Assembly: GCA_019262145.1 (NCBI GenBank)
Contig: CP076745.1
Coordinates: 1,051,093-1,115,092 of the forward strand
Length of the DNA stretch: 64,000 nucleotides
Reading direction: 5' to 3'
Origin: Candidatus Methanogranum gryphiswaldense
GTDB taxonomy: Archaea > Thermoplasmatota > Thermoplasmata > Methanomassiliicoccales > Methanomethylophilaceae
Position numbers and translations under genes: made by a program. A model generated the notes under the pieces. That model saw only the letters and a list, made by a program, of their open reading frames with translations, was not told where the DNA came from and did no database searches. Positions 13,590-61,615 of this stretch are shown piece by piece. The stretch's first letter is position 1; each line of letters opens with the position of its first letter.

Positions 13590-14783
13590 TCATAAGAGAC
13601 CTGTTTTTTCCAATGCCTGATCTATGTCTTTTATCAGATCATCAAGATCCTCTATTCCTACACTGAATCTGAAGAATCCCTTGTTGAACTCCTTCGGATA
13701 TAGATACTGTCTCTCATCATTCTCTCCTAGGAATACTATCAAACTCTCATCGTGACCGAGAGATACCGCAGATGTTATGATCCTAAGGTGACTTATGAAT
13801 TTGTTATGAGCGTCATGATCAGCCTTCAATCCAAAGGCCAGAACACCTCCAAATCCTGGATGCATCTGCTTCAAGGCCGTGTGATAATTCTTATGGCTTT
13901 TTAATCCTGGATATGAAACAAAACTTACACATGGCAAACATTCCAGATATTCAGCTATCTTTAACGCATTGTAATTATGTACCTTCATACGAAGAGGCAA
14001 TGTGACCGAACCACGCATTATAAGCCAGGCATTGAAAGGACTTATCACTCCCCCCAAATTGATCTGCGACTGTGTACGTATGACATCCAATTGCGTCTTT
14101 TTTCCTATTATCGCACCACCCATTGCGTCACCGTGTCCATTTATGTATTTGGTCAAGCTCTCAATTGAAAAATCAGCATCCAGTTCGATTGGACGCTGGT
14201 TGAAAGGTGAGGCAAAGGTATTATCGACCGAAAGTAACGCATGATTATCGTGTGCTATTTTGGCTATTTCTGTTATGTCCGATACAGAAAGAGTGGGATT
14301 TCCTGGTGTTTCAATATGTACCAACTTAGTATTCGGACGTATGGCAGCCCTTACTGCATCAAGGTCTGTGGTATCTACAATAGTGGTCTCCACATTGAAT
14401 TTACTTTTCAGAAGCTCATTCAAAAGACGATAGACCGCTATGTACGTCACACTTGAGAATACCACATGGTCTCCACTCTTCAATAATGCAAAGAAAAGTC
14501 CAGATAACGCAGAAACACCGCTAGCCAGAACTATACAATCTTCCCCGCCTTCCAGGGATGCGATCTTCTCTTCCAAATAACGTTGATTGGTACCTCCGTT
14601 ACGTGTGTATAGGTTTACATCTGCATCGCTCCAATTCAAATTCGTTGGATCGTACGGAAGTTCATAGCTATTCGCCATAGTTATAGGCCTTTTTATTGCC
14701 CCTGATTCTTTATCTACATCATTACCTGTATGAACCGATCTTGTCTGAAAACCAAGTTCATTGCCATATTTTCTTTCACTCAT
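13590..14783 (-). CDS. Cys/Met metabolism PLP-dependent enzyme
   Basis: Cystathionine gamma-synthase / methionine gamma-lyase / O-acetylhomoserine sulfhydrylase superfamily, 397 residues, the typical length. The PLP lysine lies in SIESLTKYINGHGDAMGG (near residue 210), with the substrate/cofactor blocks YTRNGGTNQRYLEEKIASLEGG and ASGVSAL upstream and VDNTFASPFNQRP in the middle. The exact reaction cannot be told from sequence alone. It is clearly distinct from the second member at 24652-25809, which sits next to mccA. Start ATG at 14783. It precedes the radical SAM gene in the same direction. Confidence 0.82.
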   Translation of the reverse strand: MSERKYGNELGFQTRSVHTGNDVDKESGAIKRPITMANSYELPYDPTNLNWSDADVNLYTRNGGTNQRYLEEKIASLEGGEDCIVLASGVSALSGLFFALLKSGDHVVFSSVTYIAVYRLLNELLKSKFNVETTIVDTTDLDAVRAAIRPNTKLVHIETPGNPTLSVSDITEIAKIAHDNHALLSVDNTFASPFNQRPIELDADFSIESLTKYINGHGDAMGGAIIGKKTQLDVIRTQSQINLGGVISPFNAWLIMRGSVTLPLRMKVHNYNALKIAEYLECLPCVSFVSYPGLKSHKNYHTALKQMHPGFGGVLAFGLKADHDAHNKFISHLRIITSAVSLGHDESLIVFLGENDERQYLYPKEFNKGFFRFSVGIEDLDDLIKDIDQALEKTGLL

Positions 14784-16566: not shown

Positions 16567-17238
16567 TCAACTGACCCTTATCGTATTCCTTGCCGCTGTT
16601 TCAGCTAGTGACTGAAGTTGCACCGACTTATCAAAAACGTAAATTTTTTCTGGGTTTGCTTCGGTTATTGGATTAGTAGGCAATATGGTGCATCCTGAAA
16701 CCTGTTTTATGGAAATATCAAATGTTCCTATCTCTTTTGCTATGGCCTCAATTTCCAATTTATCATAACCGATAAGGGGACGGATGACTGGGTAATTAAG
16801 CTCTATATTTTCAGAACGTATATTCTTAAGTGTCTGCGAAGCTACTTGTCCCAAAGAATCTCCCATTATCACACCGCTGCAACCAAGTTCGGTACCAAGG
16901 ATCTTTGCAGTTCTTTGCATAGCTCTTTTACACATTACGCACTGGTAATTGCGATCGCATGACTTTGATATTATATCCTGTGAAATGCCATGAGGTGCAG
17001 AATACAACGGCATTTCTTGTCCAGTTACCTCTCTAAGTCTGACTGCCAATTCTTTTACTCTCTCTATCGCACGATCATCGGCAAATGGACGATTATCCAT
17101 ATGTAGTAGCACAACCTCTGCGCCCATTTTGGTCATTATGTAAGATGAGACCGGAGAATCAATACCTCCTGAAATCAATGATATGAATTTTATCTGTTTG
17201 TATTCGTTAGATTCGTATTTTGAAGTTGTTCCTGACAT
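16567..17238 (-). CDS. thiI: ThiI catalytic (PP-loop) domain as a separate protein
   Basis: About 223 residues matching only the PP-loop sulfurtransferase domain of ThiI, which makes 4-thiouridine at position 8 of tRNA. Visible: SLISGGIDSPVSSY (PP-loop), YQCVMCKRAM (first catalytic Cys), GDSLGQVASQT, and SGCTILPTNP, whose Cys would be the second catalytic cysteine. The THUMP and ferredoxin-like domains are missing and are encoded divergently at 17425-18270. ATG at 17238 is preferred; GTG at 17280 is possible. A TATA-like CCTATAAG lies upstream on the minus strand. The two halves probably act as one enzyme. Confidence 0.88.
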   Translation of the reverse strand: MSGTTSKYESNEYKQIKFISLISGGIDSPVSSYIMTKMGAEVVLLHMDNRPFADDRAIERVKELAVRLREVTGQEMPLYSAPHGISQDIISKSCDRNYQCVMCKRAMQRTAKILGTELGCSGVIMGDSLGQVASQTLKNIRSENIELNYPVIRPLIGYDKLEIEAIAKEIGTFDISIKQVSGCTILPTNPITEANPEKIYVFDKSVQLQSLAETAARNTIRVS

Positions 17239-17424
17239 ATTTACAACCTTTACTTGACTGCTACCTGTGTTTGATATCACACGTTTATGGCCCGTATTAT
17301 CTTTACAATACTTATAGGTTTAATATGTTTTGGTCTATCAACCTAAAAATTACCATCTGCAGATAACATCATTTGTAAGATATGAATGCAAAATCTTTAT
17401 ACTTATCAATTGTTAAGTCCTACT

Positions 17425-18270
17425 ATGCCTATAGTTCTAATAAGATATTCGGAAATAGGTTTGAAAAGCACGCCTGTTAGAACAAGATTTGAAAACCAAT
17501 TGAAGGGAAAGATAATCTCCATGCTTGCATCAGACCGTATAGAAGCATTGGTCAAAAAGGGAAATGCTAGATTTTATGTAGAGTCGAATGACACCGATGG
17601 AGCAATCCGTTCTTTGAAAAAGGTCTTCGGTATTGCATCGATCTCGATAACTGAAGTATGCGGTACGAAAATGGATGAGATCTGCTCAAAGGCCGCAGAA
17701 TACTCAATAAGCAGAATATCTGAGAATCAATCCTTTGCTGTAAAGGCGAGAAGAGAAGGAACACAACCCTACACTAGCATGGATGTGGGAAGAGAGGCAG
17801 GTTCAGCGATATACGAGACCAATAAAGAAAAAAACATCAGGGTAGATCTTAGCAAACCGGATGTAAAAATATACATTGAGGTTCGGGACAATAAAACATA
17901 CATTTTCGATTCATACATACAATGCCACGCTGGACTACCACTTGGAAGCCAAGGTAATGTAATGGCGGAAGTTAACGATGACCGTGGAGTCCTTTCTGCT
18001 TGGTTGATGATGAAACGTGGATGCAAGGTTTTCATAAGAGGCGATGCAGACGTATCTTTACTCAAGAACTACGACCCCAAGCTTAAGATCCTGAACGATC
18101 GTCCTAATGATCCAAAAAGCATACTTGGATTTGTTAAGGGTACCGACATCGATACAATACGCTCTATCGACACTTCCAAGTATGATTTACCTATATTCTT
18201 CCCGACCATCGGAATGAACGATGAAGATGTAAAGATCTATCTGGACAAATTGGTAGCAGAATGCGAATGA
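17425..18270 (+). CDS. THUMP-domain half of a split ThiI (tRNA binding)
   Basis: About 281 residues beginning in the ThiI manner (MPIVLIRYSEIGLKS). An N-terminal ferredoxin-like domain with RTRFENQLKGKI is followed by a THUMP domain (about residues 55-165; FAVKARREGTQPYTSMDVGREAG). A Rossmann-like region (about 175-280) starts like ThiI (GLPLGSQGNV) but lacks the SGGxDS loop and catalytic cysteines. It therefore looks like a degenerate PP-loop domain. Start ATG 17425; the ATG at 17386 lies upstream of the TATA-like CTTTATACTT. An ATCAATTGTT box (17405-17414), similar to the carbonic anhydrase element, sits just before the start. Partner of the protein at 16567-17238. Confidence 0.82.
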   Translation: MPIVLIRYSEIGLKSTPVRTRFENQLKGKIISMLASDRIEALVKKGNARFYVESNDTDGAIRSLKKVFGIASISITEVCGTKMDEICSKAAEYSISRISENQSFAVKARREGTQPYTSMDVGREAGSAIYETNKEKNIRVDLSKPDVKIYIEVRDNKTYIFDSYIQCHAGLPLGSQGNVMAEVNDDRGVLSAWLMMKRGCKVFIRGDADVSLLKNYDPKLKILNDRPNDPKSILGFVKGTDIDTIRSIDTSKYDLPIFFPTIGMNDEDVKIYLDKLVAECE

Positions 18271-18360: not shown

Positions 18361-20358
18361 TCAAACTCTCAATTGTTTAGGCTTTCCAACCGCAGTGATC
18401 TTGACCTGTGTTTCCAAAATTATATCCCTCATTGTATCTGTACCAAGAGAATATTTCTTTTCTTTGAACTCGGACGATATGCATATATCTTCTGCACCAG
18501 ACCTCTCAGCAGCTAAAAAGACGTATTCCTCTCCTTTTTCCTTTGCAAATCTGGTACCTTCCAAATAACTATCGAAATCGAATTTACCAAATTTGGTGAA
18601 CACGGTGCATGGTGTCACCTCAGGGTCTCCATCCGAAAGAGGTTTGATCAATATGTCAAGGCTCTCAGATATCCCACCGGTTATCGCACCCAATGCATTT
18701 CCTACTTCTGAACACTCAGGTATTATCAAATCGGTATGGAATCTCTTTGCCACATCGGGCAGATATGCACCGACAGGAGCACCTATGCCGATTATAGGTT
18801 TGTTCAAAACAATAGAACATGCAAAATCTGGACCTGATCCATTCAAAACTGCTTTTGATATCAAAGATTCTGCGGTCTTATCGATCTCTTCTGTTCCCAC
18901 ATCCTCTATCAACAGTTTCTTCATGAGCTCAATGCAGAGTTTATCGATTATCTGTCCTTTGACCTTCTTTATGAATTCCTCTGAGGTTATCCTTAGTTTT
19001 GCTGCCTGATATGCAACACCCAAAACAGATGCGGCCCTATCATACTGGACATAACTGTTCTCTGCGTGCAACAGATCTGTTGGTGTTAGCCCGACCCTCT
19101 GTATTATCCTCTGCTCTTCCAACCTTACAACATTGAAAGATAAAGGTTGAATTCCAAATTGTTCACTTGCCTCTCTGAGCGAACGCGGTCCATCCTTAAG
19201 GAATTCAAGGAATTTCAGATCATTATCTGATATGCTCCTGCCCGAATAATCCTTTGTCAGGACGAAGAATTCGATATCCTGTACGATGTTGCTTACCTCT
19301 ACAGACTCTGGTGAAGGACGGGATGGCTTCTCTGATACTACCTTGAGATGATCGGTTATACTTGGCCATTTGGAAGCTGCTATGCACAAGGGTATTACAC
19401 GTATGGGCGTAAGTATAACCCTGTTACCATTGACAACTATGCGACTATCCCCTCCGATACCTGAAGTAGATATCTCAGCAGCCATCACACGTGTCCTCAC
19501 ACCACTTATAAGAGCGCCTTCCTTTTCTAGTCTGGGCACGCCGTTTCTCAATATGCCTATATCTGTGGTCGTCCCACCTATGTCCATTATTATCGCATCT
19601 TCTTTGCCTGTGAGCCTTTTTGCACCTATTAGACTTGCAGCAGGACCTGAAAGAATGGTCTCTATTGGCCTCTCTGCAGCTGTATCCACATTCATGACAG
19701 AACCGTCCCCTTTAACTATCATCAAAGGGGCTTTGATATCATTCTCAAGCAGAACCTTGTTGACTGATGCTATCAACTCTTTTATTATAGGTATCAAACG
19801 CGAATTCATTACTGAAGTAACTGTACGTTCATTGAACCCTAAAGTGGATGAAAGTTCATGACCACAGACCACAGGTACGTCTAATATCTCTTGCGCAAGT
19901 TCCTTTACACGTTTTTCGTGCTCTGGATTCCTGACACTGAGATATCCTGTGATGGCCAACCCATCCACCTTTCCTTTGATCGATCTCAGGAACTCTTCAG
20001 CCGCCTTCTCATCCAAAGGTTCAGTCTCAGTTCCTGACATGTTATGTCTTCCCTTGATGCACGTGTGAAGATCGACATTTATAAGATTATCAGGCTTACG
20101 ATCTATGCATATCAATCCTACTCTGCACCCCTTACCCTCAACAATAGAATTTGTTGCCAGTGTTGATGATAGAGACACGATTGATATCTCCTTGAACAGT
20201 TTCTTATCGAAATTAGATATCGCATTCCTTATTCCGATTGAAAGATCTTCCCTTGTTGTCAACGCCTTTGATTTGCTTACAATTATGTCTGTATCAAAGT
20301 TCACAAGAACGGCATCCGTATATGTGCCGCCTGTATCAAATCCTAATCCGTAACTCAT
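18361..20358 (-). CDS. HyuA-like ASKHA ATPase of a corrinoid operon
   Basis: A 665-residue hydantoinase/oxoprolinase (HyuA)-family protein. Nucleotide-binding signatures of the ASKHA fold are GFDTGGTYTDAVL (residues 5-17) and IMDIGGTTTDIG (near residue 245). A later glycine-rich block is IGIGAPVGAYLP. Around residues 385-420 lies an insert that reads like a winged helix (GPRSLREASEQFGI...EEQRIIQRVG). The family includes ATP-dependent ring-opening enzymes, but the operon holds a corrinoid protein and its methyltransferase. RamA, the known activator of such proteins, is also an ASKHA protein, so ATP-driven reactivation of the corrinoid is a reasonable alternative. RamA-type Fe-S motifs are absent here. 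Starts 5 bp after the zinc-ribbon gene ends. Confidence 0.75.
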   Translation of the reverse strand: MSYGLGFDTGGTYTDAVLVNFDTDIIVSKSKALTTREDLSIGIRNAISNFDKKLFKEISIVSLSSTLATNSIVEGKGCRVGLICIDRKPDNLINVDLHTCIKGRHNMSGTETEPLDEKAAEEFLRSIKGKVDGLAITGYLSVRNPEHEKRVKELAQEILDVPVVCGHELSSTLGFNERTVTSVMNSRLIPIIKELIASVNKVLLENDIKAPLMIVKGDGSVMNVDTAAERPIETILSGPAASLIGAKRLTGKEDAIIMDIGGTTTDIGILRNGVPRLEKEGALISGVRTRVMAAEISTSGIGGDSRIVVNGNRVILTPIRVIPLCIAASKWPSITDHLKVVSEKPSRPSPESVEVSNIVQDIEFFVLTKDYSGRSISDNDLKFLEFLKDGPRSLREASEQFGIQPLSFNVVRLEEQRIIQRVGLTPTDLLHAENSYVQYDRAASVLGVAYQAAKLRITSEEFIKKVKGQIIDKLCIELMKKLLIEDVGTEEIDKTAESLISKAVLNGSGPDFACSIVLNKPIIGIGAPVGAYLPDVAKRFHTDLIIPECSEVGNALGAITGGISESLDILIKPLSDGDPEVTPCTVFTKFGKFDFDSYLEGTRFAKEKGEEYVFLAAERSGAEDICISSEFKEKKYSLGTDTMRDIILETQVKITAVGKPKQLRV

Positions 20359-20363
20359 CTACA

Positions 20364-20771
20364 TCACCTGTTAGCTTTTACACCTAGATCGCTGTTCCTC
20401 TCAGAGACAATTTTGCATATATGATCTGCAATCGACCTCTGTTGAGCCTCATTCTGTATGTCTGGAAATTCTCCGATTGGGAATTCATTGTCGCATTTAT
20501 TGCATCTAACTTTGGGGCATCCCTTTGCTGCCTCTGAGCACCCTTGGCATGCAAACGTCCTTGCATAAACTAATGAGAACCTAAATCCGCAGAATGGACA
20601 GTCAAACTTTCTGACTGATGCGGTTGTATTGTATGAGAAGTCTTGAGCCCTCATCGATTCGTAATATCCATTTGTCATCTGTATCCCTTTACCAATTGCG
20701 TCGGGGTATCCACATTTATCACGGATTACCCCGACTAATATGTTTGAAATGTTTTCATGTAACCCGTTCAA
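20364..20771 (-). CDS. Small zinc-ribbon protein of the corrinoid operon
   Basis: About 135 residues of unknown function. The first 55 or so residues have no recognised domain. Then three cysteine knuckles follow: FDCPFCGF, ACQGCSEAAKGC and RCNKCDNEF, a zinc-ribbon or rubredoxin-like arrangement. The start is a TTG overlapping the stop of the methyltransferase gene (TTGA), which indicates translational coupling; the next ATG would remove about 31 residues. Conserved placement between a corrinoid methyltransferase and a HyuA-like ATPase suggests it belongs to the same complex, perhaps as a metal or electron carrier. That role is inference. Confidence 0.65.
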   Translation of the reverse strand: MNGLHENISNILVGVIRDKCGYPDAIGKGIQMTNGYYESMRAQDFSYNTTASVRKFDCPFCGFRFSLVYARTFACQGCSEAAKGCPKVRCNKCDNEFPIGEFPDIQNEAQQRSIADHICKIVSERNSDLGVKANR

Positions 20772-21856
20772 TCGAGTCTTCCATATTTTTCCACAGTTTT
20801 GACCACTGCTTCGATGTTTTCCAATTTTGTATTTATGTCAGGGGGTACCTCACAACCAGATGCGATACAGTACCTGGAATTCAGTCCACGTTTGCATAGA
20901 GCGGTCTTGACCTCTTGACATAGATCTTTTGTTACCTTCGTTATTGTTTCAACGGACCCTCTACGGAATAATTGAGGATCGATATTACCTGCAACGAGAC
21001 AATTGTCCGCATATCCTGAACCGATAACCTCTGAAGCAGTTAACGATCCCTCGATATCCGGATAGTAGGCCATTGAATAAATCGCAGGCTTGAACTTATT
21101 GATCTGGGTATCGAGATGTGGAAGGTCCGCGCAATTGTGTATGGCAACAGCCATTCCATTATCCCTCGTCTCCTGGTTCAACCTCTTTGCATATACATCG
21201 CCTTCAAACTCTCCGTACTCATCGTCACCCAAACAAGAATAATTACCCCAGAGATAGTCCCAGCATAATCCATTAACGCCGGTCTGTCCGATCTCTTTAA
21301 CGATCTCTGAATCAAACTCTGTCATTACTTTGAGTGCCTTATGAACAGGTGCAGGATCTGTGAACATATCCATGAATAATCTTTCCGCACTGGCACTCTG
21401 TGACAATGCAAGTAGAGGTCCTTCCAGGAATGCAGATGTCACTACCTTACCATTCAACTTGTCCGCGATTATCCTTGTGCCCTCGATTATCACTCTGGAT
21501 CTTCCTTTTTTTACATCAGGAACCTCGAGTTTCTCATAATCTTCGATAGATTTTATGATCGGTCTGTTCACATAAGGTGTGTTCTCCTCATCGAATTTCA
21601 CGCCTGCTCCAAGATCTCCAGCCATTACTGAAAGGTCCATCAAACCAATAGCGAAATCAAATCCGAAACGTTTCTGTCCCTGAATAAATGCCTCAGCATA
21701 CAGCTTTGGATCGCTGGCCCATTCTCTGTATGTAACACCATTTTTACCAATAAGCTTCCTATTTACACCACATGCTATTGGATATGTTGGTAATCTGTCG
21801 ATTTTTTCATTATTGATTGCACCGAGTGCTCTCTGTGCATGTGTTATTTCTGTCAT
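20768..21856 (-). CDS. Zinc methyltransferase of the MtaA/MtbA/CmuA (UroD-like) family
   Basis: About 362 residues, uroporphyrinogen-decarboxylase fold. The zinc-thiolate signature of corrinoid:thiol methyltransferases is present: IHNCAD (His-x-Cys, near residue 240) and, about 80 residues later, ASGCEVPPD (third ligand Cys). Known relatives move a methyl group from a methyl-corrinoid protein to coenzyme M, or, in CmuA- and O-demethylase-type proteins, from substrate to corrinoid. Its own corrinoid protein is encoded directly upstream with an ATGA overlap. No MtmB/MtaB-type substrate methyltransferase is adjacent. The natural methyl donor is therefore unknown. ATG at 21856 is set by the overlap. 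Confidence 0.82.
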   Translation of the reverse strand: MTEITHAQRALGAINNEKIDRLPTYPIACGVNRKLIGKNGVTYREWASDPKLYAEAFIQGQKRFGFDFAIGLMDLSVMAGDLGAGVKFDEENTPYVNRPIIKSIEDYEKLEVPDVKKGRSRVIIEGTRIIADKLNGKVVTSAFLEGPLLALSQSASAERLFMDMFTDPAPVHKALKVMTEFDSEIVKEIGQTGVNGLCWDYLWGNYSCLGDDEYGEFEGDVYAKRLNQETRDNGMAVAIHNCADLPHLDTQINKFKPAIYSMAYYPDIEGSLTASEVIGSGYADNCLVAGNIDPQLFRRGSVETITKVTKDLCQEVKTALCKRGLNSRYCIASGCEVPPDINTKLENIEAVVKTVEKYGRLD

Positions 21857-22494
21857 TGCTGAACCCTCTTTAACCAAGATACACAATCTTGTGCGTTGAT
21901 GTCTCTGTGGTCTGCACCTATCTCTTCCGCAAACGAATTCGATGTCGGAGGCCCTCCGATAGTGACCTTACATTTACTACGATATCCGTTCTCTTTCAAT
22001 GCGTCCACTGTCACACCCATGTAATCCAATGTAGGGGTCATGATAGTACTAAGAGCGATCACATTTATTCCAAGCCTCTTTGCTTCATCAGCGATCAATT
22101 CTGATGGGACGTCTTTTCCTAGATCGGTAACATAATAACCGCCAGCTGTCAACATTGCTTTAACAATGTTTTTACCGATATCATGAACATCTCCCTCTAC
22201 GACCGCGGTTATGCATGTTTTTCTGCTGACACGATCTTCCACTGGAATAGCAGGAAGAAGGACATCGAGTCCAGCATACATGCTCTTAGCCGCAGCTAAT
22301 ATCTGAGGAAGGAACAATTTATGAGCCGCGAATAATTCGCTCACAATTGACATTCCTCTTACCAATCCATCATTTATGGCTTCAACTGGATCTATTTCCT
22401 CTTCAAGTGCTCTCTCAGCCGCAGCTTTGGAACGGACCCAATTCAATTCCACAACGGAATCAGTCAATTCTCCAATTATTTTTTCCTTTGACAT
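21853..22494 (-). CDS. Corrinoid protein of an unassigned methyltransferase system
   Basis: A 213-residue B12-binding protein of the MtaC/MtbC/MttC type. A four-helix cap (residues 1-85) is followed by a Rossmann-like B12 domain. The cobalt-ligating His lies in EGDVHDIGKNI (near residue 105), with later ALSTIMTPTL and GGPPTSNSFAEEIGAD for the nucleotide tail. First gene of a four-gene operon (corrinoid protein, methyltransferase, zinc ribbon, HyuA-like). It is unlike the two corrinoid proteins at the right end of the window, so it probably serves a different methyl donor. A TATA-like CTTTATTTAAAC (about 22545-22556) and two dyads lie upstream. Confidence 0.88.
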   Translation of the reverse strand: MSKEKIIGELTDSVVELNWVRSKAAAERALEEEIDPVEAINDGLVRGMSIVSELFAAHKLFLPQILAAAKSMYAGLDVLLPAIPVEDRVSRKTCITAVVEGDVHDIGKNIVKAMLTAGGYYVTDLGKDVPSELIADEAKRLGINVIALSTIMTPTLDYMGVTVDALKENGYRSKCKVTIGGPPTSNSFAEEIGADHRDINAQDCVSWLKRVQQ

Positions 22495-23252: not shown

Positions 23253-23699
23253 GTGGCAAATTTGAAAATATCAACTAAAGGAAGATATGCATTACGTATG
23301 ATACTTGACCTAGCCGAACACAAAGATCAAGGATTCATTGCGTTAAAGGATATAGCTGAAAGACAAGAGATATCAAAAAAGTATTTAGAACAGATAGTGC
23401 CACTTCTCAATAATTCTAATATGCTAAAGACAAATCGCGGATATCAAGGAGGATATATGCTAGCTAGATCCCCAGATAAATATACGGTCTGGGACATACT
23501 TAGTCTTACAGAAGGAAGCATGACCTTGGTATCATGCCTTGATACTCCAGACAACACTTGCCCACGCAGCGAATACTGTATGACCCTACCTGTTTGGAAG
23601 GGCTTGAACAAAGTGATCTCCGATTATCTAAAAAGTGTCACAATACAAGATATATTGGATCAATACAAAAACCGTGAAATTAACGTCTACATCATATGA
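23253..23699 (+). CDS. Rrf2-family transcriptional regulator (IscR/CymR-like) 1
   Basis: About 145-148 residues. An N-terminal winged helix opens with the family signature KISTKGRYALRMILDLA, and the recognition-helix region is ISKKYLEQIVPLL. Three C-terminal cysteines (SCLDTPDNTCPRSEYC) are spaced as in IscR-type proteins that bind a [2Fe-2S] cluster. The start may be GTG at 23253 or TTG at 23262. The latter gives the canonical MKISTKGRYALR start and has GGTG five bases ahead. It converges on mccA-mccB. CymR, a member of this family, controls cysteine genes in bacteria, so control of mccAB is plausible. Upstream dyad suggests autoregulation. Confidence 0.85.
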   Translation: MANLKISTKGRYALRMILDLAEHKDQGFIALKDIAERQEISKKYLEQIVPLLNNSNMLKTNRGYQGGYMLARSPDKYTVWDILSLTEGSMTLVSCLDTPDNTCPRSEYCMTLPVWKGLNKVISDYLKSVTIQDILDQYKNREINVYII

Positions 23700-23704
23700 T
23701 AATA

Positions 23705-23730
23705 ATGTGACAGGGATCATCCTGTCACAT
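23705..23730. terminator. Bidirectional hairpin between rrf2 and mccA
   Basis: Perfect 10-bp stem ATGTGACAGG / CCTGTCACAT with a 6-base loop, between the ends of two convergent genes. Confidence 0.6.
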
Positions 23731-23734
23731 CTCA

Positions 23735-24646
23735 TCAAATATAAAGATTTTTACTGATGTAACGATCCCCACGATCGGGGAATACTACAACAATGTTCCC
23801 TTTATGAATTGTTCTTGCGAGTTCCAATGCAGCATACATTGCTGCACCTGAAGAAGATCCAGCAAACACACCTTCACGTCTAGCAAGTTCACGGCACATA
23901 CCAAACGATTGTTCATCGTTGATCTTTATTACTTGATCTACCAAAGACATATCCATTGTTTTTGCAATAAAATCGTTTCCAATACCTTCGATATCATAAT
24001 CTCCGTGTTCTCCTCCCCCAATCGTAGAACCGACAGGATCTGCGAGGACACCTTTGATATTCTTATTTTTCTCTTTAAGATACTTAAGAACTCCGGAATA
24101 GGTTCCACCACTACCTGCCCCAGCTACCAAATAATCTATTTGTCCATCAAGATCCTCATAGATTTCTGGACCTGTTGTCTCATAATGGGCAAGAGGATTG
24201 CTCATGTTATTGAATTGTTCCAAGGATATAGAATTAGGATGTACTTTCCTTAATTCATCTGCCTTTTTTGTCGCTCCTTGCATACCGTCCTCACGAGGCG
24301 TATTTATTATCTCTGCACCCAAGGCACGCATCAAAACTTGTTTTTCCATTGAGAACTTAAGAGGTACAACAAAAATAACATGATATCCGCGATTCAATGC
24401 TGCAAATGCTATACCTATTCCTGTGTTCCCAGCTGTTGCCTCTATTATTGTATATCCTGGTTTCAAAGACCCTTTTTTCTCTGCATCCTTGATCATATAG
24501 ATTCCTACACGATCTTTGACACTGCCAGCAGGATTGGATAACTCCAATTTGGCAAATATGTTCACCCCGTCTGGAACGTCCATATTATTTAATTTCAGAA
24601 GGGGGGTGTGCCCTATCATATCCTGCATAGAATTGTAATAATGCAT
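23735..24646 (-). CDS. mccA: Cystathionine beta-synthase / cysteine synthase-like PLP enzyme (MccA type)
   Basis: Fold-type II PLP enzyme of the CysK/CBS family, about 303 residues. Start of the family pattern is MIGHTPLLKL; the PLP lysine is in NPAGSVKDR; the phosphate-binding loop is AGSGGTYSG; and the substrate loop is EATAGNTGIG. Its pairing with a gamma-type Cys/Met enzyme (24652-25809, with a short overlap) is the arrangement of mccAB. There an O-acetylserine-dependent cystathionine beta-synthase and a cystathionine gamma-lyase convert homocysteine to cysteine. ATG at 24646 follows AAGTGATC; GTG at 24655 is the alternative. Distinct from the second copy (cysK, 34975-35904). Confidence 0.85.
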   Translation of the reverse strand: MHYYNSMQDMIGHTPLLKLNNMDVPDGVNIFAKLELSNPAGSVKDRVGIYMIKDAEKKGSLKPGYTIIEATAGNTGIGIAFAALNRGYHVIFVVPLKFSMEKQVLMRALGAEIINTPREDGMQGATKKADELRKVHPNSISLEQFNNMSNPLAHYETTGPEIYEDLDGQIDYLVAGAGSGGTYSGVLKYLKEKNKNIKGVLADPVGSTIGGGEHGDYDIEGIGNDFIAKTMDMSLVDQVIKINDEQSFGMCRELARREGVFAGSSSGAAMYAALELARTIHKGNIVVVFPDRGDRYISKNLYI

Positions 24647-24651
24647 CAAGA

Positions 24652-25809
24652 TCACTTCTTGCTGAGATATATCGCATTCTGAAGATCAGAAGTAATGTCT
24701 CCAATGTTCTCTATTCCAACAGATAAACGGATCAACCCCTCAGTTATCCCTACCTTCTGACGTATGTCATATGGGATAGATGCATGGGTCATGCTTGCTG
24801 GATGGCAGATCAAGGATTCAACACCACCAAGACTTTCAGCAAGTGCGATTAATTCGAGTGAAGAGAAGAATTTTTTAACATCGTAATTCTCTTTTAACTC
24901 AAAGGACAGCATTGCCCCTCCGTTCTTGGCCTGTTTTTTATTTATATCGTAGCCATGAAAATCTGGACTTCCTGGATAGAACACTTTCTCCACGGCATCA
25001 TTGGATCTTAGGAATTCCACAACTGCCTTTGCATTCTCCACATGACGGTCCATACGAACAGCCAGGGTCTTGATCCCTCTTATGAGTAGAAAAGAATCGA
25101 ATGGTTGAAGTATGCCGCCTGTTGCATTCTGTATGAAATGTATACGGTCTGCCAATTCTTTCGAATTTACAACCACTAGGCCAGCGATTAGATCGCTATG
25201 GCCTCCGAGATATTTCGTTGCACTGTGTACTACAATATCTGCTCCGAGATCCAAAGGACGCTGAAGATAAGGTGTCATGAACGTATTGTCGACAATTGTG
25301 TATATTCCATGCTTCTTTGTTATTTCAGATACTCCTTTTATGTCTGTAATTGACATTAGAGGATTTGCTGGACTCTCGATGAATATGGCTTTTACATCAG
25401 GACCTATCTTCTTATCCAAAGATTTGAGGTCCGTTGTATCTTCGATCGAGTATTTTATTCCAAAATTAAGGAATATCTTATCCAATACACGAAATGTCCC
25501 ACCGTAAACATTACTGGATATTATTATCCTGTCTCCAGATTTGAATAGACTTAAAACCGCAGTTATGGCGGCCATGCCTGATGCGAATGCAAAACCCGCG
25601 GTACCGTTCTCGAGTTCCGATATTAATGATTCTAATGCGTCTCTCGTAGGGTTCCCGGTTCTCGAATACTCATATCCTTTATTGATCCCGAGACCCTGTT
25701 GTTGATACGTTGATGTCTGATATATCGGAACATTCACCGCACCTGTTCTCTCATCTCCGCTAATGCCTCCATGAATTAACGCAGACTCGATGTGTGTATG
25801 GTTGCTCAT
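24652..25809 (-). CDS. mccB: Cystathionine gamma-lyase / gamma-synthase (MccB type)
   Basis: PLP enzyme of the Cys/Met metabolism family, 385 residues. PLP lysine in SATKYLGGHSD (near residue 205); YSRTGNPTRDALE and SGMAAI upstream; VDNTFMTPYLQRPL in the middle. Lyase and synthase cannot be told apart by sequence alone; the adjacent mccA favours cystathionine gamma-lyase in reverse transsulfuration. Start ATG 25809 with GGAGATAA ahead. A TATA-like CATATTAAATAG (about 25843-25855, minus strand) and a dyad immediately beyond it suggest regulated transcription, possibly by the nearby Rrf2 protein. Confidence 0.87.
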   Translation of the reverse strand: MSNHTHIESALIHGGISGDERTGAVNVPIYQTSTYQQQGLGINKGYEYSRTGNPTRDALESLISELENGTAGFAFASGMAAITAVLSLFKSGDRIIISSNVYGGTFRVLDKIFLNFGIKYSIEDTTDLKSLDKKIGPDVKAIFIESPANPLMSITDIKGVSEITKKHGIYTIVDNTFMTPYLQRPLDLGADIVVHSATKYLGGHSDLIAGLVVVNSKELADRIHFIQNATGGILQPFDSFLLIRGIKTLAVRMDRHVENAKAVVEFLRSNDAVEKVFYPGSPDFHGYDINKKQAKNGGAMLSFELKENYDVKKFFSSLELIALAESLGGVESLICHPASMTHASIPYDIRQKVGITEGLIRLSVGIENIGDITSDLQNAIYLSKK

Positions 25810-52144: not shown

Positions 52145-53776
52145 TCAACCAGGTATTGTGAAATATCTAAGATTTAGAACCCCTTGTTTACACGCTCTTT
52201 CACAACGTCTGCAAGCAGTGCCCGCACATCTGTCGGACTTGACCTTAGCATATACCTTTCCTTCCTCACGGATTATGGACAGGGCATTTTCAGGACAAGC
52301 CTTGATACAGTGTCCGCATAATGTGCAATCCTTGACCTCGCCCATGATGATCGTCCCCGAATCCTCGAGTATGTTCACCTTGCGATTCTCGGTATCCGGA
52401 AGATCGGTACGTGCAAGCCTCTCTACAACGAGCTTCTTGGTCGGTTCAGACAGAGGAGGCAGATTGTAAATGTCCAACATGTTGTTGTATTCGGATGCTG
52501 GCATCCCGGTGCACCAAAGGGAGTATTCTATCGAATAGATATTTTTGAATGTTTCCGAGGTTGCGAACATGACATGAGTGGCCCTGAGTTTCTTGGCGAA
52601 TTCGCGTAGATCGTCGAGATCCATCTTTCCCATCGCGATCTCTCTCGCCATTTCAATGGAGGTATTACCGAACTGCACGATGTGCTCAGCACCGGGTACT
52701 ACCATTCCGATCTTCATTGCCTTAGCGGCATCCACATAGAGACCTGATGCTCCCGACATGTACGCTTTCTTAACATCGCCTGTCCATAATCCAGCCTCAT
52801 GCAAGAGCGTAAGGAATCCAGCACGTAAGGCACCTATTGCCTTGCCTGCCTCGTCCACATCGGCCGATGATATGCAGATGTCATCCTGAAGATGGATCTT
52901 CCCATCAGGTGTGAGTATCTTAGGAGTATCGATGAGCCCTGTCTCCATACCACAATACAGAGTCGCTACGACCCCTGTTCCGGTGACACCTATTGCCCGA
53001 CAGTTCATCTTTCCCTTCTCTACGGGTTTACCTGTTTTAGGATCGACAGTATCTCCTATCCTCTCTACCATGGCATCATCCAGGACCGTGCATTTCCATC
53101 CATCTTTGGTTATGTCCACATCACATATGGCTCCCGGAGCGGCCAACATACCTTTCTCTATCTGCTGTCCTTCAAGAGCGGGCCCTGCTGCTGCAGAACC
53201 TGTGAATATCTTTCCATTCACTATGAGCGCCATCTCTGCATTGGTACCGTAGTCCACTACAATGACAGGCTCCTTCTCACTGAGGATGTTGGTCATCTTC
53301 AGCATTGCAATGGCATCCGCACCAATCTCATGCGTCACGGCCGGGGGTATTACAAGTTCCGCATCCGGCATACCGACTATACCGAGATCGGATGCTTTAA
53401 GGACCTTTCCATTTCTTTCCGGAGGAACGACCCCGAGGTCCTTCAGCATATTCTTTCCCGCGTATGCAAGGTCCCTGATCTCTATATTTTCAAAAAGCGA
53501 CAATTGGAATGTGTTGCCGCTTACACCGACCCTCCTTACTTTGGAGAGATCGATACCGAGTGTCGAGAAGAGTTGATTCACCGCACCGATTATCAATCCG
53601 TTCGCGACATCCTCTCCGGATTGGATCGCGAAATTCACATGGTCTATGACGTTCATGCCAGGTATCGGATGACGCTGTGTGATCGATGTCGCAAGTGTCT
53701 CTCCTGTGCCCATATCAATGGCCTGACACCGAAGACCGCTTGTCCCTATATCCAATGCAATACAATAGTCTGTCAT
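52145..53776 (-). CDS. ramA: RamA, ATP-dependent reductive activase of methylamine corrinoid proteins
   Basis: About 543 residues. Activates MtmC, MtbC and MttC by reducing inactive Co(II) to Co(I) with ATP hydrolysis. The ASKHA ATPase domain is visible in DIGTSGLRCQAID (N-terminus), VDYGTNAEMALIV and SGASGLYVDA. Two C-terminal [4Fe-4S] motifs follow: CTLCGHCIKACP and CRRCERACK. Length and layout match RamA. ATG 53776 with GGAGATGA ahead, five bases after pylD. Here it ends the pyl operon, which ties corrinoid activation to pyrrolysine synthesis. Confidence 0.95.
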   Translation of the reverse strand: MTDYCIALDIGTSGLRCQAIDMGTGETLATSITQRHPIPGMNVIDHVNFAIQSGEDVANGLIIGAVNQLFSTLGIDLSKVRRVGVSGNTFQLSLFENIEIRDLAYAGKNMLKDLGVVPPERNGKVLKASDLGIVGMPDAELVIPPAVTHEIGADAIAMLKMTNILSEKEPVIVVDYGTNAEMALIVNGKIFTGSAAAGPALEGQQIEKGMLAAPGAICDVDITKDGWKCTVLDDAMVERIGDTVDPKTGKPVEKGKMNCRAIGVTGTGVVATLYCGMETGLIDTPKILTPDGKIHLQDDICISSADVDEAGKAIGALRAGFLTLLHEAGLWTGDVKKAYMSGASGLYVDAAKAMKIGMVVPGAEHIVQFGNTSIEMAREIAMGKMDLDDLREFAKKLRATHVMFATSETFKNIYSIEYSLWCTGMPASEYNNMLDIYNLPPLSEPTKKLVVERLARTDLPDTENRKVNILEDSGTIIMGEVKDCTLCGHCIKACPENALSIIREEGKVYAKVKSDRCAGTACRRCERACKQGVLNLRYFTIPG

Positions 53777-53780
53777 GTTT

Positions 53781-54611
53781 TCATCTCCTACACTTCTTCT
53801 TGTCAGGGCATGAGAATGATGCACTTTGCACTGCCATGACCGATACTCCAATGTCCAAAGGATCGTGAATTATCGTTGCCTTTGAATAAGCCTCATCATC
53901 AAATGTATGTGGCACTCCGGGAGACGATATGATCGCCCCCTTTCTGATATTCCGACTGTCGATATGGGCCGGGGATGCGTTGAATATCAGATCGTGCGAT
54001 GAGATCGCACTTTCTATATTGTCTGCGACCGTGATACCAGGATTGGATCTGGCGACCTTACCTGCTTTCTCCCCATCTATGTCCGCCACGACAACATTGG
54101 CACCTCTTGCCAAAAGCAAACCTGCGGCCCTGCTTCCTACTCTTCCGGCCCCCAACACAAGGACGGTCTTTCCCATCAGTCCCTTGGAAGCTCCATTCAG
54201 GGCAGCAACGTATCCCGCTGCTGTACAGAACGAATTGTTGGAATATTTCCTTGCTTTTGTATTATACGCGATAAATTCGTAATCGTCCGCAAGAAATACT
54301 ATATTGGCATCTTTGGCCAATGCTTCTGCCAATCCCGTTACATCATAACCGGATGTAACGAATGCATCCATTCCCAGAGCACGGCATATATCTGCCACAG
54401 ATTCCGAGAACCTTGTTATGACGCCCATTCCTGAGGTTATAGGCACCACACCGATGTTATAATCCTGCAGATCTATGGAATCAGGTGTTATCGCGACCGC
54501 GTCACATGCCATCTCCTTCGTTGTCATATTAGAACAGCGTACCAACATCTGGCTAACGCTTTCCAATGACTCTGATATGCCCCTCACGTCATCATCTGTA
54601 AGTCTGGTCAT
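53781..54611 (-). CDS. pylD: PylD, pyrrolysine-forming dehydrogenase
   Basis: 276 residues. Last step of pyrrolysine synthesis: oxidises the lysine-ornithine conjugate, which then cyclises. NAD-binding Rossmann loop VLGAGRVGSRAAG (near residue 152), preceded by the PylD-specific SGMGVITRFSESVADI and followed by NASPAHIDSR. Ends with a short Cys/Lys tail (SCPDKKKCRR). Its ATG overlaps the pylC stop by one base (TGATG). Confidence 0.95.
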   Translation of the reverse strand: MTRLTDDDVRGISESLESVSQMLVRCSNMTTKEMACDAVAITPDSIDLQDYNIGVVPITSGMGVITRFSESVADICRALGMDAFVTSGYDVTGLAEALAKDANIVFLADDYEFIAYNTKARKYSNNSFCTAAGYVAALNGASKGLMGKTVLVLGAGRVGSRAAGLLLARGANVVVADIDGEKAGKVARSNPGITVADNIESAISSHDLIFNASPAHIDSRNIRKGAIISSPGVPHTFDDEAYSKATIIHDPLDIGVSVMAVQSASFSCPDKKKCRR

Positions 54612-55771
54612 CAGATCATCTCCGGAGACCTGTCCACATATTCATCGAGTTCGCATTCGCTCATGACCTTGTTGATGAATTCCTTCCTCTTGACCAATAC
54701 ATCTGAGGAATTCTTACCGTGATTTATCACTGTGGCCCTCCACTCGTTCCTTCCAGGCATGTAATCGGTTATCACATCATCGGCACCGAACATCCCCTCG
54801 ACGATATACGGCATATCAACATGACCGAATTCCTTCTCACCGCACGTGTAGAGATTGCCATCGCGAATGACATAATGCTCATAGACAGAACATCCGCCAG
54901 AATTGTATCTGCCTGTTTTTTCTCCAAGGGCCGAATGGACAAGCTCCTCCAACAGATTGATACCTGTGGCCGCCTGAATGGCAGCTGGCGTCTGACTTGG
55001 TATCCTGGCATCGATCTCCAGTACGCGGAGTCCTTTCTTTGTGTATATGGCCTCTACATCCATCAATGCACGGAGACCTATATTGTCCGCAATATCTGTG
55101 CCGATCCTATCAAAAATGATATTGTCCTCGTCGCTAAGGATATTAGGTTCGCATACTACCATCTTGCAATCGTAGTTGTAGTCTAGGACCACTTCGGTCG
55201 TGACATATGCCCTGGAAGAACTCCCGTTTCCTATGACCTCTATCGAAACGCTCTTCCCGGATACGAACTCCTGTTGTATCGGAGTATCGTTCAACTTCTC
55301 GACGACCTTCAATGCCTTGTGTCTCTCATCCTCGTTATTTGCAACATTTACACCGATACTGCCACTCTGTGAGGAGGGCTTGACAACTATTGGATAACCG
55401 CACTCGGGCCATGGTTGGGGAAGAGGCACTCCCAACTCAGCCATAATTTGATTGGACCTTTCCTTGGAGCATGATATCTCGTATGAATGCATATCGAAGA
55501 GAAATGGTTTCCCTGTCTCGGGAACGATCTTATTCAAAAGCTGTAATCCATCCAACTCTTCGAACGCTGGTATTACCACATCACAATCCGAGAATGTTCT
55601 CTTGGCCTGTTCTGGGTCCTTCAAAATATTACAATGAACAAACTCATCGGCCAACGAAGACGCTGGTGCCGATGTTTTCCTATCTAGGACCACAGTCTCA
55701 AATCCTGCCTTCTTGGAAAGGAATACTGCTTCCATCCCCTGAAGGGCCCCCCCAACAATGCCGATCTTCAT
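54611..55771 (-). CDS. pylC: PylC, pyrrolysine biosynthesis ligase (ATP-grasp)
   Basis: 386 residues. Joins 3-methylornithine to the side-chain amine of lysine. N-terminal Rossmann-like domain (GIVGGALQGMEAVFL), then ATP-grasp with PIVVKPSSQSGSIGV and the Mg site EIDARIPSQTPAA. Preceded by pylB with one base between stop and start and followed by pylD with a one-base overlap. Confidence 0.95.
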   Translation of the reverse strand: MKIGIVGGALQGMEAVFLSKKAGFETVVLDRKTSAPASSLADEFVHCNILKDPEQAKRTFSDCDVVIPAFEELDGLQLLNKIVPETGKPFLFDMHSYEISCSKERSNQIMAELGVPLPQPWPECGYPIVVKPSSQSGSIGVNVANNEDERHKALKVVEKLNDTPIQQEFVSGKSVSIEVIGNGSSSRAYVTTEVVLDYNYDCKMVVCEPNILSDEDNIIFDRIGTDIADNIGLRALMDVEAIYTKKGLRVLEIDARIPSQTPAAIQAATGINLLEELVHSALGEKTGRYNSGGCSVYEHYVIRDGNLYTCGEKEFGHVDMPYIVEGMFGADDVITDYMPGRNEWRATVINHGKNSSDVLVKRKEFINKVMSECELDEYVDRSPEMI

Positions 55772-55772
55772 C

Positions 55773-56831
55773 CTACTCTCTCCTCAGCTTCGATTCGTGT
55801 TCTGTAAGGAACGATCTATACTCCGAATTACTGGCAACATGTCTTCCCATGTTCTCTAGCATTTCGATGACATAATCGACGGAACGATGTCCGTCGTCGA
55901 TATTCAGTTCTGGTTGTGCAACACCGGCCAATTCCTGGTGCGGTGGAATGATGGAAGTGATCACGTTAGCCCCTGCATCTATCCTTGTCTTCAGACCAGC
56001 TATGCCCTCGACATCCAAACTGGCCGGTATCAAACGATCCTGGAAGAGCAATCTCATGACCGCTATAGCCTTCAATTCCTCTGTGGAATCCTGAGGGACC
56101 AACCCCTGCATCGGAGTGCCTGCCTGAGGAACAAAGGTCATCGCACGTATCTGCTCACAACCCAATCCGCCCATGCAAAGGATCGCTTCCGCTCTATCAC
56201 GAGGTGTCTCGCCCATTCCGACAAGCATACCGTCCTCGGTGAGAATTCCTGCTTGTTTTGCCCAGATCCTTTGATCTATCCTGTTCTGATAGTCCTGTTC
56301 CAATCTCAGATTTTGGAACAGATCCCTGTTGTATGTTTCCTGATAGCATGCAAACCAATCTGCACCAGCATCTCTCAGTTTGGGAAATGCCTCCTTATCG
56401 ATGGCCCCGGGGGATATCATTATGCCTGTATCCACGGTATCCCTTACGCTCTGGACAAGATCTATCAGGTTCTCGTGGCCATTGACGTACATCCTCGGAT
56501 CCTCGCCCATCGTCAGATCGACCAGATTGACACCGGCATCCTCTAAACTTGCGGATAATTCCAATACCTCTTCCTTGGTCTTCCTGTATCTTGGAAGCTC
56601 ATTGGTACTCCTGTAATAGCAGAAAGCACAATTATTTTTACAGTAAGTAGAAAAGTATACGAATCCGTAGATGTAAACCTTGTTCCCGAAACGCCTATCC
56701 CTGACCCTTCTGGCAGCTGAGAATAAGGCATCAACCTCCTCTTTATCGGATGCTGAGATCAGCGCAATGACCTCGTTAAGATCTAACTGCTTCCCTTTCT
56801 CTGCATCATTGATCAGTTGAAAAACGTTCAA
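55773..56831 (-). CDS. pylB: PylB, methylornithine synthase (radical SAM)
   Basis: 352 residues. Turns lysine into 3-methylornithine. Radical SAM cluster motif YCKNNCAFCYYR (near residue 67); DLTMGEDPRMY and GMLVGMGETPRDRAE match PylB. First of the three biosynthetic genes. The stop codon is TAG, unusual in this window; if read as pyrrolysine, the frame would run 24 more codons, to a TGA, inside pylC. ATG 56831 is nine bases after pylS. Confidence 0.95.
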   Translation of the reverse strand: MNVFQLINDAEKGKQLDLNEVIALISASDKEEVDALFSAARRVRDRRFGNKVYIYGFVYFSTYCKNNCAFCYYRSTNELPRYRKTKEEVLELSASLEDAGVNLVDLTMGEDPRMYVNGHENLIDLVQSVRDTVDTGIMISPGAIDKEAFPKLRDAGADWFACYQETYNRDLFQNLRLEQDYQNRIDQRIWAKQAGILTEDGMLVGMGETPRDRAEAILCMGGLGCEQIRAMTFVPQAGTPMQGLVPQDSTEELKAIAVMRLLFQDRLIPASLDVEGIAGLKTRIDAGANVITSIIPPHQELAGVAQPELNIDDGHRSVDYVIEMLENMGRHVASNSEYRSFLTEHESKLRRE

Positions 56832-56840
56832 ACCCTCACC

Positions 56841-57665
56841 TCAACTTATCTTGTAACCATTAAGATAATTCAGACTCCTGCCTGTCTTCTTCACACTTCC
56901 GTCCCCGTCCCTCATCATGACGAGACGCTCCAGACCGAATCCTACACCGCACCATGGTTCGTGTACATCGTGTGCAGGGTCCAGAACATGAGGCCCTACG
57001 GCCCCAGAAGATACTTCCTCCCCATCGACCAGGACATCGATCGTCTCTTTGTAGACATCGGATTCCTCTCTGGAAAGGGTGTAATCGATGCCGACCGTTC
57101 TCATCACAACATCGATGTAACCCTTGAGTTTCTCGGTCGCATCGCCTTGTGGACCCATATCCACCAGATTAAGCATGGTGAATTCTTCCAGATGATCATT
57201 GCTATGCGATTCGGCCCTGAAACAGGACCCTATCTCGAAGATCTTCACCGGACCATCCGTATGGTCCCTGAGTTTCCTCATGACATAGTACAGATTTGGT
57301 GCAAGCATGGGCCTGAGACACCTCTTATCATCGATGAAGAACACTTGTTTGTAGAGCGGATGATCTTCAGTTATTGTCATTTTAGCCAAAGCGGCCTTCG
57401 ACATCATACATGGCGTACGTACTTCTATGAACCCCTCAGCTATAAGCGCCGCTGCGAGATCGTTCTCTAGTTGGACCAATCTGTTCTTACGAGGATTGAT
57501 GACCATTTCTTTGATCCCTTTCTCGTTCTTTACGGTCAACTGTGACATTACCTTCGAGAAGACTCTGTCTCTCTCCGACTCGCTTTCAAATGTCGAATTA
57601 TCACGGGGATCGTCACCGAATTCCCTTAGACGCTGGATCTGTGGGTCTGTAAATTTGTACTCCAT
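56841..57665 (-). CDS. pylS: PylS, pyrrolysyl-tRNA synthetase (catalytic domain only)
   Basis: About 274 residues, class II synthetase charging tRNA-Pyl with pyrrolysine. Only the catalytic domain is present. The N-terminal tRNA-binding domain (PylSn) of Methanosarcina is absent and no pylSn gene is in the window, as in other members of this order. Motif 2 region FEIGSCFRAESHSNDHLEEFTMLNLVDMG (cut here), substrate-pocket LAPNLYYVM and MLNLVD, and motif 3 PWCGVGFGLERL are clear. ATG 57665; pylT lies 34 bp upstream on the same strand. Confidence 0.96.
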   Translation of the reverse strand: MEYKFTDPQIQRLREFGDDPRDNSTFESESERDRVFSKVMSQLTVKNEKGIKEMVINPRKNRLVQLENDLAAALIAEGFIEVRTPCMMSKAALAKMTITEDHPLYKQVFFIDDKRCLRPMLAPNLYYVMRKLRDHTDGPVKIFEIGSCFRAESHSNDHLEEFTMLNLVDMGPQGDATEKLKGYIDVVMRTVGIDYTLSREESDVYKETIDVLVDGEEVSSGAVGPHVLDPAHDVHEPWCGVGFGLERLVMMRDGDGSVKKTGRSLNYLNGYKIS

Positions 57666-57699
57666 GGTGATCACTTCAAGAATCGCTGACAATAACAAA

Positions 57700-57770
57700 T
57701 GGCGAGAGACCGGGGTGTCGACCCCCGCTGGCTAGGTTCTAGAGACCCGCTGCTCGCCGGAGCGTCCCCC
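57700..57770 (-). tRNA. pylT: tRNA-Pyl (anticodon CUA)
   Basis: A 71-base gene including encoded CCA. Acceptor GGGGGAC pairs with GUCUCUC. A single base separates acceptor and D stem. The D-arm is very short. Anticodon CTA at 57742-57740 sits in the loop CTCTAGA closed by GGGT / ACCT. T stem CGGGG / CCCCG with a 7-base loop. Discriminator G, then CCA. The sequence closely resembles the tRNA-Pyl of Methanomethylophilus that I remember. Decodes UAG in mtmB. Confidence 0.96.
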
Positions 57771-57797
57771 ATTGTTCTATGCGAACGACGATATCGT

Positions 57798-57827
57798 TGA
57801 TACAAGTGCCTTAAGCGACTCGTATCA
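57798..57827. other. Stem-loop between mtmB2 and pylT
   Basis: TGATAC ... GTATCA with an inner helix AGTGC / GC(G)ACT and loop CTTAA. A second small hairpin, AACGA-CGATA-TCGTT, abuts it (57784-57798). No clear TATA box is visible between mtmB2 and pylT, so these may be processing sites in a shared transcript or a terminator. Confidence 0.45.
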
Positions 57828-57856
57828 TCAATGCCTAGGCAGCCATATACATCTCC

Positions 57857-59235: not shown

Positions 59236-59253
59236 AATCAGAATATGGATTAG

Positions 59254-59265
59254 TTAAATATATAA
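59254..59265 (-). promoter_or_regulatory. TATA-like box of mtmB2
   Basis: TTATATATTTAA on the minus strand, 19-30 bases before the mtmB2 ATG. This would start transcription at about the ATG, giving a leaderless or very short-leader mRNA. Confidence 0.5.
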
Positions 59266-59433
59266 GCTTTATGCATATAAAATCAGAAGTATTAAATATG
59301 TATTTCTAATACTAAACCACTTTAAGCAATTAGTATTTAAAACAATGGTATTAAAAATGATTAGGTCCCGGGAAACCCACTCGATCTATGTTATCTTGGA
59401 GGAAATTACATGCCTTCAGAGCAGATTTTTTGA

Positions 59434-59447
59434 GGGGCCGAAGCCCC
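59434..59447 (-). terminator. cUUCGg hairpin after mtmB1
   Basis: GGGGC-TTCG-GCCCC on the minus strand, an extra-stable UUCG tetraloop hairpin 55 bases after the mtmB1 stop. It is followed by TCAAAAAATC rather than a T-run, so mRNA end protection is as likely as termination. Confidence 0.5.
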
Positions 59448-59501
59448 CCAAATGTCCTCCCGGGGTGGACTGTTATTTTGTAAAAAGTTTGAACAAAGCA
59501 C

Positions 59502-60887: not shown

Positions 60888-60897
60888 AATTAACACC

Positions 60898-61530: not shown

Positions 61531-61615
61531 GTTCTTCCTCTCCTTGACCTGAAATGCACAGGCCTTCACCTCTCCAAGCGTCATCTTTTCGAAGTTATAA
61601 TTTATTATCTTAATA

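Follow-up and report, generated by a model that had tools for sequence, protein, structure and literature searches.

A putative two-subunit Mts-type corrinoid methyltransferase operon with a candidate ATP-dependent maintenance pair in Candidatus Methanogranum gryphiswaldense

Gene content and recurrence of the operon

The genome of Candidatus Methanogranum gryphiswaldense, a methanogen of gut or soil type from the order Methanomassiliicoccales, is a single contig of 1,516,968 bases (CP076745.1) and was analyzed over a stretch of 64,000 nucleotides (the window), which includes four consecutive minus-strand genes at 18361-22494, referred to here as the unit. These encode a corrinoid protein, a zinc methyltransferase of the URO-D fold, a Cys-rich zinc ribbon, and a HyuA-like ASKHA ATPase (Table 1). 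All four open reading frames (ORFs) and the domains named for them in an initial annotation of this DNA were confirmed. The corrinoid protein matched the B12-binding and cap domains (1e-20 and 3e-18) and has the DxHxxG motif (D102/H104/G107), while the 362-aa protein had a URO-D domain match of 3.9e-49 and a zinc motif, H240-N-C242...C335, that was invariant in 11 aligned unit copies.

The corrinoid protein and URO-D genes overlap by 4 bases (ATGA, 21853-21856), and 5 bases separate the zinc ribbon gene from that of the HyuA-like protein, both as initially annotated. The second 4-base overlap in that annotation, between the URO-D and zinc ribbon genes, is probably an artifact of a TTG start; because relatives of the zinc ribbon are mostly ~104 to 111 aa long and their alignment begins at residue 26 to 32 of the window ORF, the ATG at 20678 is likelier, which would put ~90 bases between it and the URO-D stop codon. 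The predicted structure model of the zinc ribbon was low in confidence (predicted local distance difference test [pLDDT] score of 57).

Table 1. Features of the unit and of its surroundings, in window positions
Feature	Position	Strand	Remarks
ThiI, PP-loop part	16567-17280	-	
ThiI, ferredoxin-like and THUMP part	17386-18270	+	
HyuA-like ASKHA ATPase	18361-20358	-	665 aa
Winged-helix-like insert of HyuA-like protein	19087-19269	-	~residues 364-424, where true HyuA has the GPACYGRGG loop
Zinc ribbon	20364-20678	-	104 aa; 7 invariant Cys; probable ATG start at 20678
Zinc ribbon, longer ORF form	20364-20771	-	135 aa; only with TTG start at 20771
URO-D-fold zinc methyltransferase	20768-21856	-	362 aa; ATG start; H240-x-C242...C335; putative split relative of MtsD/F/H-type methyltransferase domain
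Corrinoid protein	21853-22494	-	213 aa; MtsB-like/N-terminal half of Mts-type fusions; D102-V-H104-D-I-G107 cobalt-ligand motif
RamA	52145-53851		
MtmB genes, seemingly broken by in-frame stops	57940-59235 and 59502-60917		

A search for the zinc ribbon in 61 genomes identified a close family in more than half and, nearly everywhere, a distant paralogue. The regions around the close copies revealed that the four-gene cluster recurs across Methanomassiliicoccales, which answers the check for the same four genes proposed in the initial annotation. URO-D and HyuA genes were present in essentially all of 33 other zinc ribbon loci, with the corrinoid protein and URO-D genes adjacent in 30 and the zinc ribbon and HyuA genes adjacent in 21; as the loci were chosen via the zinc ribbon, these counts are conditional on it. 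The other 3 loci lacked a corrinoid protein gene owing to the end of the contig or of the retrieved sequence. The association of the genes of the unit is more than chance. In addition, 25 of the 33 loci carried a G3E/CobW GTPase gene adjoining one for a small GHxK protein (HisR), and DUF1638 was found by Pfam in 15. Another group of loci has the HyuA gene divergent from the zinc ribbon gene, after CbiNQO-like cobalt-transport genes (names by inspection) and with two DGC-like proteins encoded downstream.

The same genome holds a second complete four-gene copy at ~404.8-409.0 kb (L049 5805-10028), whose proteins are 52 to 69% identical to those of the window. About half of the loci have, near the unit, a conserved gene of ~96 aa with an NADCxCGCM motif and no Pfam match (L055 5934-6224 and relatives), which is often upstream and divergently oriented. 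The distant zinc ribbon paralogue has the same 7 Cys (L050 5617-5961, with copies in nearly all relatives). Several of its copies adjoin geranylgeranylglyceryl-phosphate-synthase-like and RadA-like genes (names by inspection), that is, housekeeping surroundings, and it was set aside as a corrinoid-linked gene after the copies inspected displayed no consistent link.

Affinity of the methyltransferase half to Mts proteins

The URO-D protein was placed among all URO-D proteins of five genomes, including two Methanosarcina, using a tree and a hidden Markov model (HMM) built on the unit URO-D proteins. This HMM gave ~583 to 728 bits for full-length members of the main group, ~465 to 475 bits for a divergent pair, 235 to 273 bits for the corrinoid/URO-D fusions of Methanosarcina, and at most 69 bits for the remaining URO-D proteins. 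In the tree, 34 unit sequences formed one group and five Methanosarcina fusions another; the two groups were sisters with 100/100 support, far from all other URO-D proteins, MtaA/MtbA included. The fusions were also the best pairwise matches of the URO-D protein outside the unit (35 to 37%, against ~24% or less for MtaA/MtbA-type proteins), and the curated MtaA/MtbA models scored 49 to 100 bits, under their cut-offs of 235 to 600. Together, the sub-cut-off scores, HMM, and tree rule out an MtaA/MtbA paralogue. The corrinoid protein matched the corrinoid halves of the fusions at 38 to 43%, among its best matches outside the unit and level with those to corrinoid proteins of a HyuA-like subfamily found in operons with RamA.

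MtsD, MtsF, and MtsH of Methanosarcina acetivorans are three corrinoid/URO-D fusions for dimethylsulfide and methanethiol (PMC7374477), and Mts proteins have been described as a 'fused corrinoid/methyltransferase' (PMC11619418), an architecture that is their hallmark. M. luminyensis and Ca. M. alvus have been reported to carry mtsAB (PMC4153887), and peatland Methanomassiliicoccales encode mtsA and mtsDFH homologues (PMC10805028). Because the URO-D protein is sister to the fusions, and mtsAB/mtsDFH homologues are already reported in the order, its sequence places the unit as a putative split Mts-type methyltransferase, a known kind in split form; enzymes of this kind channel methyl-sulfur compounds into methanogenesis. 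The corrinoid methyltransferase operon of the initial annotation is thus upheld by domains, motifs, and tree; its description as uncharacterized suits the accessory genes but not this half, which stands beside a known family with homologues reported in the order.

The unit shares with MtsD/MtsF/MtsH the same two domains, the HxC...C and DxHxxG motifs, and the URO-D sisterhood. It differs from them in consisting of two proteins from overlapping genes, with no fusion of that style, in its long branch, and in the added zinc ribbon and HyuA-like ATPase. The two-subunit arrangement of URO-D and corrinoid proteins is that of MtsA/MtsB of Methanosarcina barkeri and of the Methanomassiliicoccales 'mtsAB', and the unit is probably what earlier papers name mtsAB in this order, although the accessory zinc ribbon and HyuA-like genes go unmentioned in the available excerpts of those accounts. 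PMC4153887 cites M. barkeri MtsA as reported to catalyze both half-reactions. This precedent and the Mts-type closest relatives lend weight to the earlier suggestion that the URO-D protein may itself act on the methyl donor.

The methyltransferase could instead work in another direction or on another donor, that is, in anabolic methyl supply or in demethylation of methylated arsenic or selenium as opposed to growth on methyl sulfides. Such growth has been shown for no isolate of Methanomassiliicoccales (PMC10805028), Methanomassiliicoccus demethylates dimethylarsenite weakly (PMC10579292), and the window unit lies among cysteine and methionine genes. We nevertheless regard this alternative as rather unlikely in view of the phylogenetic affinity to the Mts-type fusions and of the methyl-sulfide genes being those reported as expressed in situ in peatland members (PMC10805028).

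The HyuA-like family and its genomic company

The HyuA-like protein contains the Pfam domain Hydant_A_N and the N-terminal half of Hydantoinase_A, covering 139 of the 291 positions of the latter model, which true HyuAs cover nearly in full. In all 38 family members aligned against true HyuA, the GPACYGRGG loop is replaced by an insert followed by TPTDxLH. The predicted structure (pLDDT 88.7) has the HyuA fold (TM ~0.6), with N-methylhydantoinase, acetone carboxylase, and caprolactamase as best PDB matches and RACo absent among the matches listed; helices at residues 378-387, 394-401, and 410-415 and a strand at 419-423 make up the insert. Among plasmid records, 80% length coverage was reached by the window protein in 17 of 903 and by true HyuA in 884 of 952. 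HyuB was found neither in the genome itself nor in 60 of the 61 genomes searched, and the sole HyuB-bearing relative has a true HyuA beside it (L218), which served as a control; the control true HyuAs adjoin HyuB.

Similarity to MutL/GlmL at E 0.001 or better was detected in 37 of the 38 family members, and is short (~60 residues around the phosphate loop); none of five true HyuAs exceeded the cut-off. The window protein scored 32.2 bits against Pfam MutL (cut-off 27) with only ~60 of 450 positions aligned, and 31 bits against NCBIfam GlmL (cut-off 475). GlmL/MutL, EutJ, and MeaB are ASKHA (GlmL and EutJ) or G3E GTPase (MeaB) helpers of B12 enzymes; they serve other enzymes, and the weak similarity to GlmL/MutL, although short, agrees with a helper role.

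The family retains the two N-terminal ASKHA lobes and overall fold of HyuA of hydantoinase, oxoprolinase, and acetone carboxylase, but has no HyuB partner, a replaced loop, and only the first half of Hydantoinase_A. HyuB absence, the lost loop, and the control comparison rule out a true hydantoinase. On these sequence grounds, we assign the protein to a distinct ASKHA family lacking the HyuA active-site loop and having a predicted winged-helix-like insert; the accessory half is new. The initial annotation had also offered a role in opening a ring of the methyl donor. An ATP-dependent amidohydrolase of this sort, acting on a cyclic methylated substrate such as N-methylhydantoin, would accord with the Pfam names and the PDB matches; it is highly improbable beside the missing HyuB and loop and the company of the family, whose members occur with systems of the Mts, MttB, and MtaA/MtbA types, the donors of which are unlike. 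As to the two refuting outcomes named in that annotation, the genes do co-occur in other genomes, and the protein lacks the features of an ordinary hydantoinase or oxoprolinase.

In a scan of named genomes, relatives with 31 to 58% identity were observed in Methanosarcina, Syntrophomonadaceae, Desulfobacterales, Chloroflexi, Rhizobium, and roseobacters, and 20 of 80 named loci had a corrinoid protein, MttB, MtrH, RamA, or DUF1638 gene within ~8 kb. A HyuA-like gene lies between two corrinoid/URO-D fusions in Methanosarcina (L109), and MttB-corrinoid protein-HyuA-MtrH layouts were seen in L102, L107, and L111. This linkage substantiates the tie between the ATPase and corrinoid systems that had been annotated at the outset. 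In the family tree, the unit formed one group (99%), with linked and orphan genes mixed elsewhere. By layout alone, the HydA gene in glycine-betaine methyltransferase clusters of acetogens (Ca. Formimonas and Sporomusa) is a similar case of a 'hydantoinase' within a corrinoid methyltransferase cluster, comparable to L102, L107, and L111, and it carries no proposed function in the excerpted literature. A literature search joining hydantoinase and corrinoid returned PMC9768040 only.

A second HyuA-like subfamily (L257-L263 and L267) has corrinoid protein-HyuA-URO-D(-RamA) arrangements in Methanomassiliicoccales. The full order with RamA was seen in L258 and L260, no corrinoid protein ORF was called in L259, and the HyuA and RamA genes of L263 overlap by 4 bases. 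Members in L259, L260, L264, and L268 bear an extra N-terminal stretch (with CFDVKKSGNSYYVYYQTTRYN).

RamA itself was present in all 61 genomes, and in many places follows a gene of the His/Cys-rich GHxK family, which has no Pfam match (at least 19 of 36 places); in 28 of 30 loci inspected, the GHxK gene itself comes after that of a G3E GTPase. HisR of the unit is related to GHxK (hhalign probability 82%, E 1.1e-5), and unit-type HisR adjoins RamA in L261, L262, and L267. Genetic evidence in Phaeobacter ties DUF1638 and a RamA-like protein to the reactivation of B12 (PMC5764234). In the genome studied here, a G3E GTPase-GHxK protein-RamA module at ~874.1-877.0 kb (L217 8141-11048) is divergent from two MtaC-MtaB pairs.

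Like the reductive activases RamA/RACo, the HyuA-like family consists of ASKHA ATPases whose genes are linked to those of corrinoid methyltransferases and of the same pair, GTPase and GHxK protein. It differs in its HyuA-type fold, in having no Fe-S cluster domain (domain scan), in giving no match to the RACo C-terminal ASKHA domain (PF14574), which the true RamA of the genome does match, and in occurring alongside RamA. The HyuA-like protein and zinc ribbon might nonetheless be the reductive activator of the corrinoid protein of the unit, replacing RamA there: no RamA gene lies within the unit, and the HyuA-like ATPase holds the place of RamA in parallel modules (G3E-GHxK-RamA in L217; G3E-HisR-zinc ribbon-HyuA in L051 and others). 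We judge this replacement improbable, since the protein has neither the Fe-S domain nor the RACo fold, RamA occurs in every genome, and the family shares operons with RamA in L258-L260, L263, and bacterial clusters. These shared operons likewise weaken the candidacy of a stand-alone RamA substitute, and the RamA-like pair of the initial annotation is preserved in spirit but not literally. The recurrence of the family beside corrinoid genes in both archaea and bacteria, in some cases within RamA operons, indicates that it is neither a hydantoinase nor a simple RamA substitute.

Alternatively, the accessory genes could encode loading factors, which would load the corrinoid protein with corrinoid or cobalt, or the URO-D protein with zinc, without any part in repair. 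Metallochaperone functions are typical of G3E/CobW GTPases and His-rich proteins, the zinc ribbon has 7 invariant Cys, and CobN/ChlI-type chelatase-like and CbiMNQO-like genes flank some copies. Against this, the same GTPase and GHxK pair adjoins RamA, a reactivation protein, the nearby DUF1638 is tied to B12 reactivation, and no GTPase gene adjoins the window's own unit; we consider loading unlikely.

Proposed mechanism and window surroundings

We favor, with moderate confidence, an operon for a two-subunit Mts-type corrinoid methyltransferase and an ATP-dependent pair maintaining its corrinoid protein; the zinc ribbon and HyuA-like ATPase would probably keep the B12-like cofactor protein working. 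The sequences support the families, gene linkage, Mts affinity, lost hydantoinase features, and linkage to RamA and DUF1638, and from these we infer a donor and an order of steps. The Co(I) corrinoid protein would be methylated by a small donor, most likely a methylated sulfur compound (e.g., methanethiol, dimethylsulfide, or a methylthio acid), and the zinc-bearing URO-D protein would catalyze this donor step and then transfer to coenzyme M, as in the MtsA precedent. The HyuA-like ATPase and zinc ribbon, in putative roles for ATP hydrolysis and for the ribbon, would recognize the off-state corrinoid protein (Co(II) or damaged) and remodel or recycle it, the ATPase acting alongside the RamA proteins of the cell and not in their stead. 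In most relatives, the G3E GTPase, His-rich GHxK protein, and DUF1638 would join the maintenance module. Because RamA shares operons with the HyuA-like family, a step beside reduction would be expected, e.g., release or exchange of damaged corrinoid.

Several observations weigh against this proposal. The name Mts was given to the fusions on the basis of their architecture, the presence of three copies in one genome, and nearby FilR1-type regulators, not of an accession match, and because a long branch separates the unit from them, its donor may differ from theirs. The G3E, HisR, and DUF1638 genes are not adjacent to the window's own unit. Because the second HyuA-like subfamily shares operons with RamA, reduction itself is presumably the task of RamA, and the HyuA-like family would serve an extra step. 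Finally, many bacteria have the family as an orphan gene (Rhizobium and roseobacters; e.g., beside malate synthase G in alphaproteobacteria), so it may have roles beyond corrinoid work.

More tentatively, the HyuA-like family could represent a third kind of corrinoid-methyltransferase helper, apart from RamA/RACo and the MetH activation domain: an ATP-driven remodeler that would free or reset inactivated corrinoid on the corrinoid proteins of methyltransferases in archaea and bacteria and, in this order, would work with the zinc ribbon, G3E GTPase, and GHxK protein. In methanogens and acetogens, corrinoid methyltransferase clusters contain 'hydantoinase' genes that have so far been unexplained, and a single family that lacks hydantoinase features and is linked to RamA and DUF1638 offers a testable candidate for a step missing from the upkeep of active B12-type methyltransferases. 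It is also relevant to the substrate range of Methanomassiliicoccales, which are methane producers of guts and wetlands.

Rfam and tRNA scans of the window were empty, and ARAGORN found no pylT there. A methylamine island at 52145-63977 comprises RamA, corrinoid proteins, two MtmB genes, and ORFs for pylDCBS (pyl and MtmB names by inspection); the in-frame stops in the two MtmB genes are as expected for pyrrolysine. Sulfur amino acid genes flank the unit at some distance (13590-14783 and 23253-25809); they encode an Rrf2 regulator and three pyridoxal phosphate (PLP) enzymes, of which two are Cys/Met enzymes and one is cysteine-synthase-like. At 16567-18270, a pair of divergent genes encodes a split ThiI.

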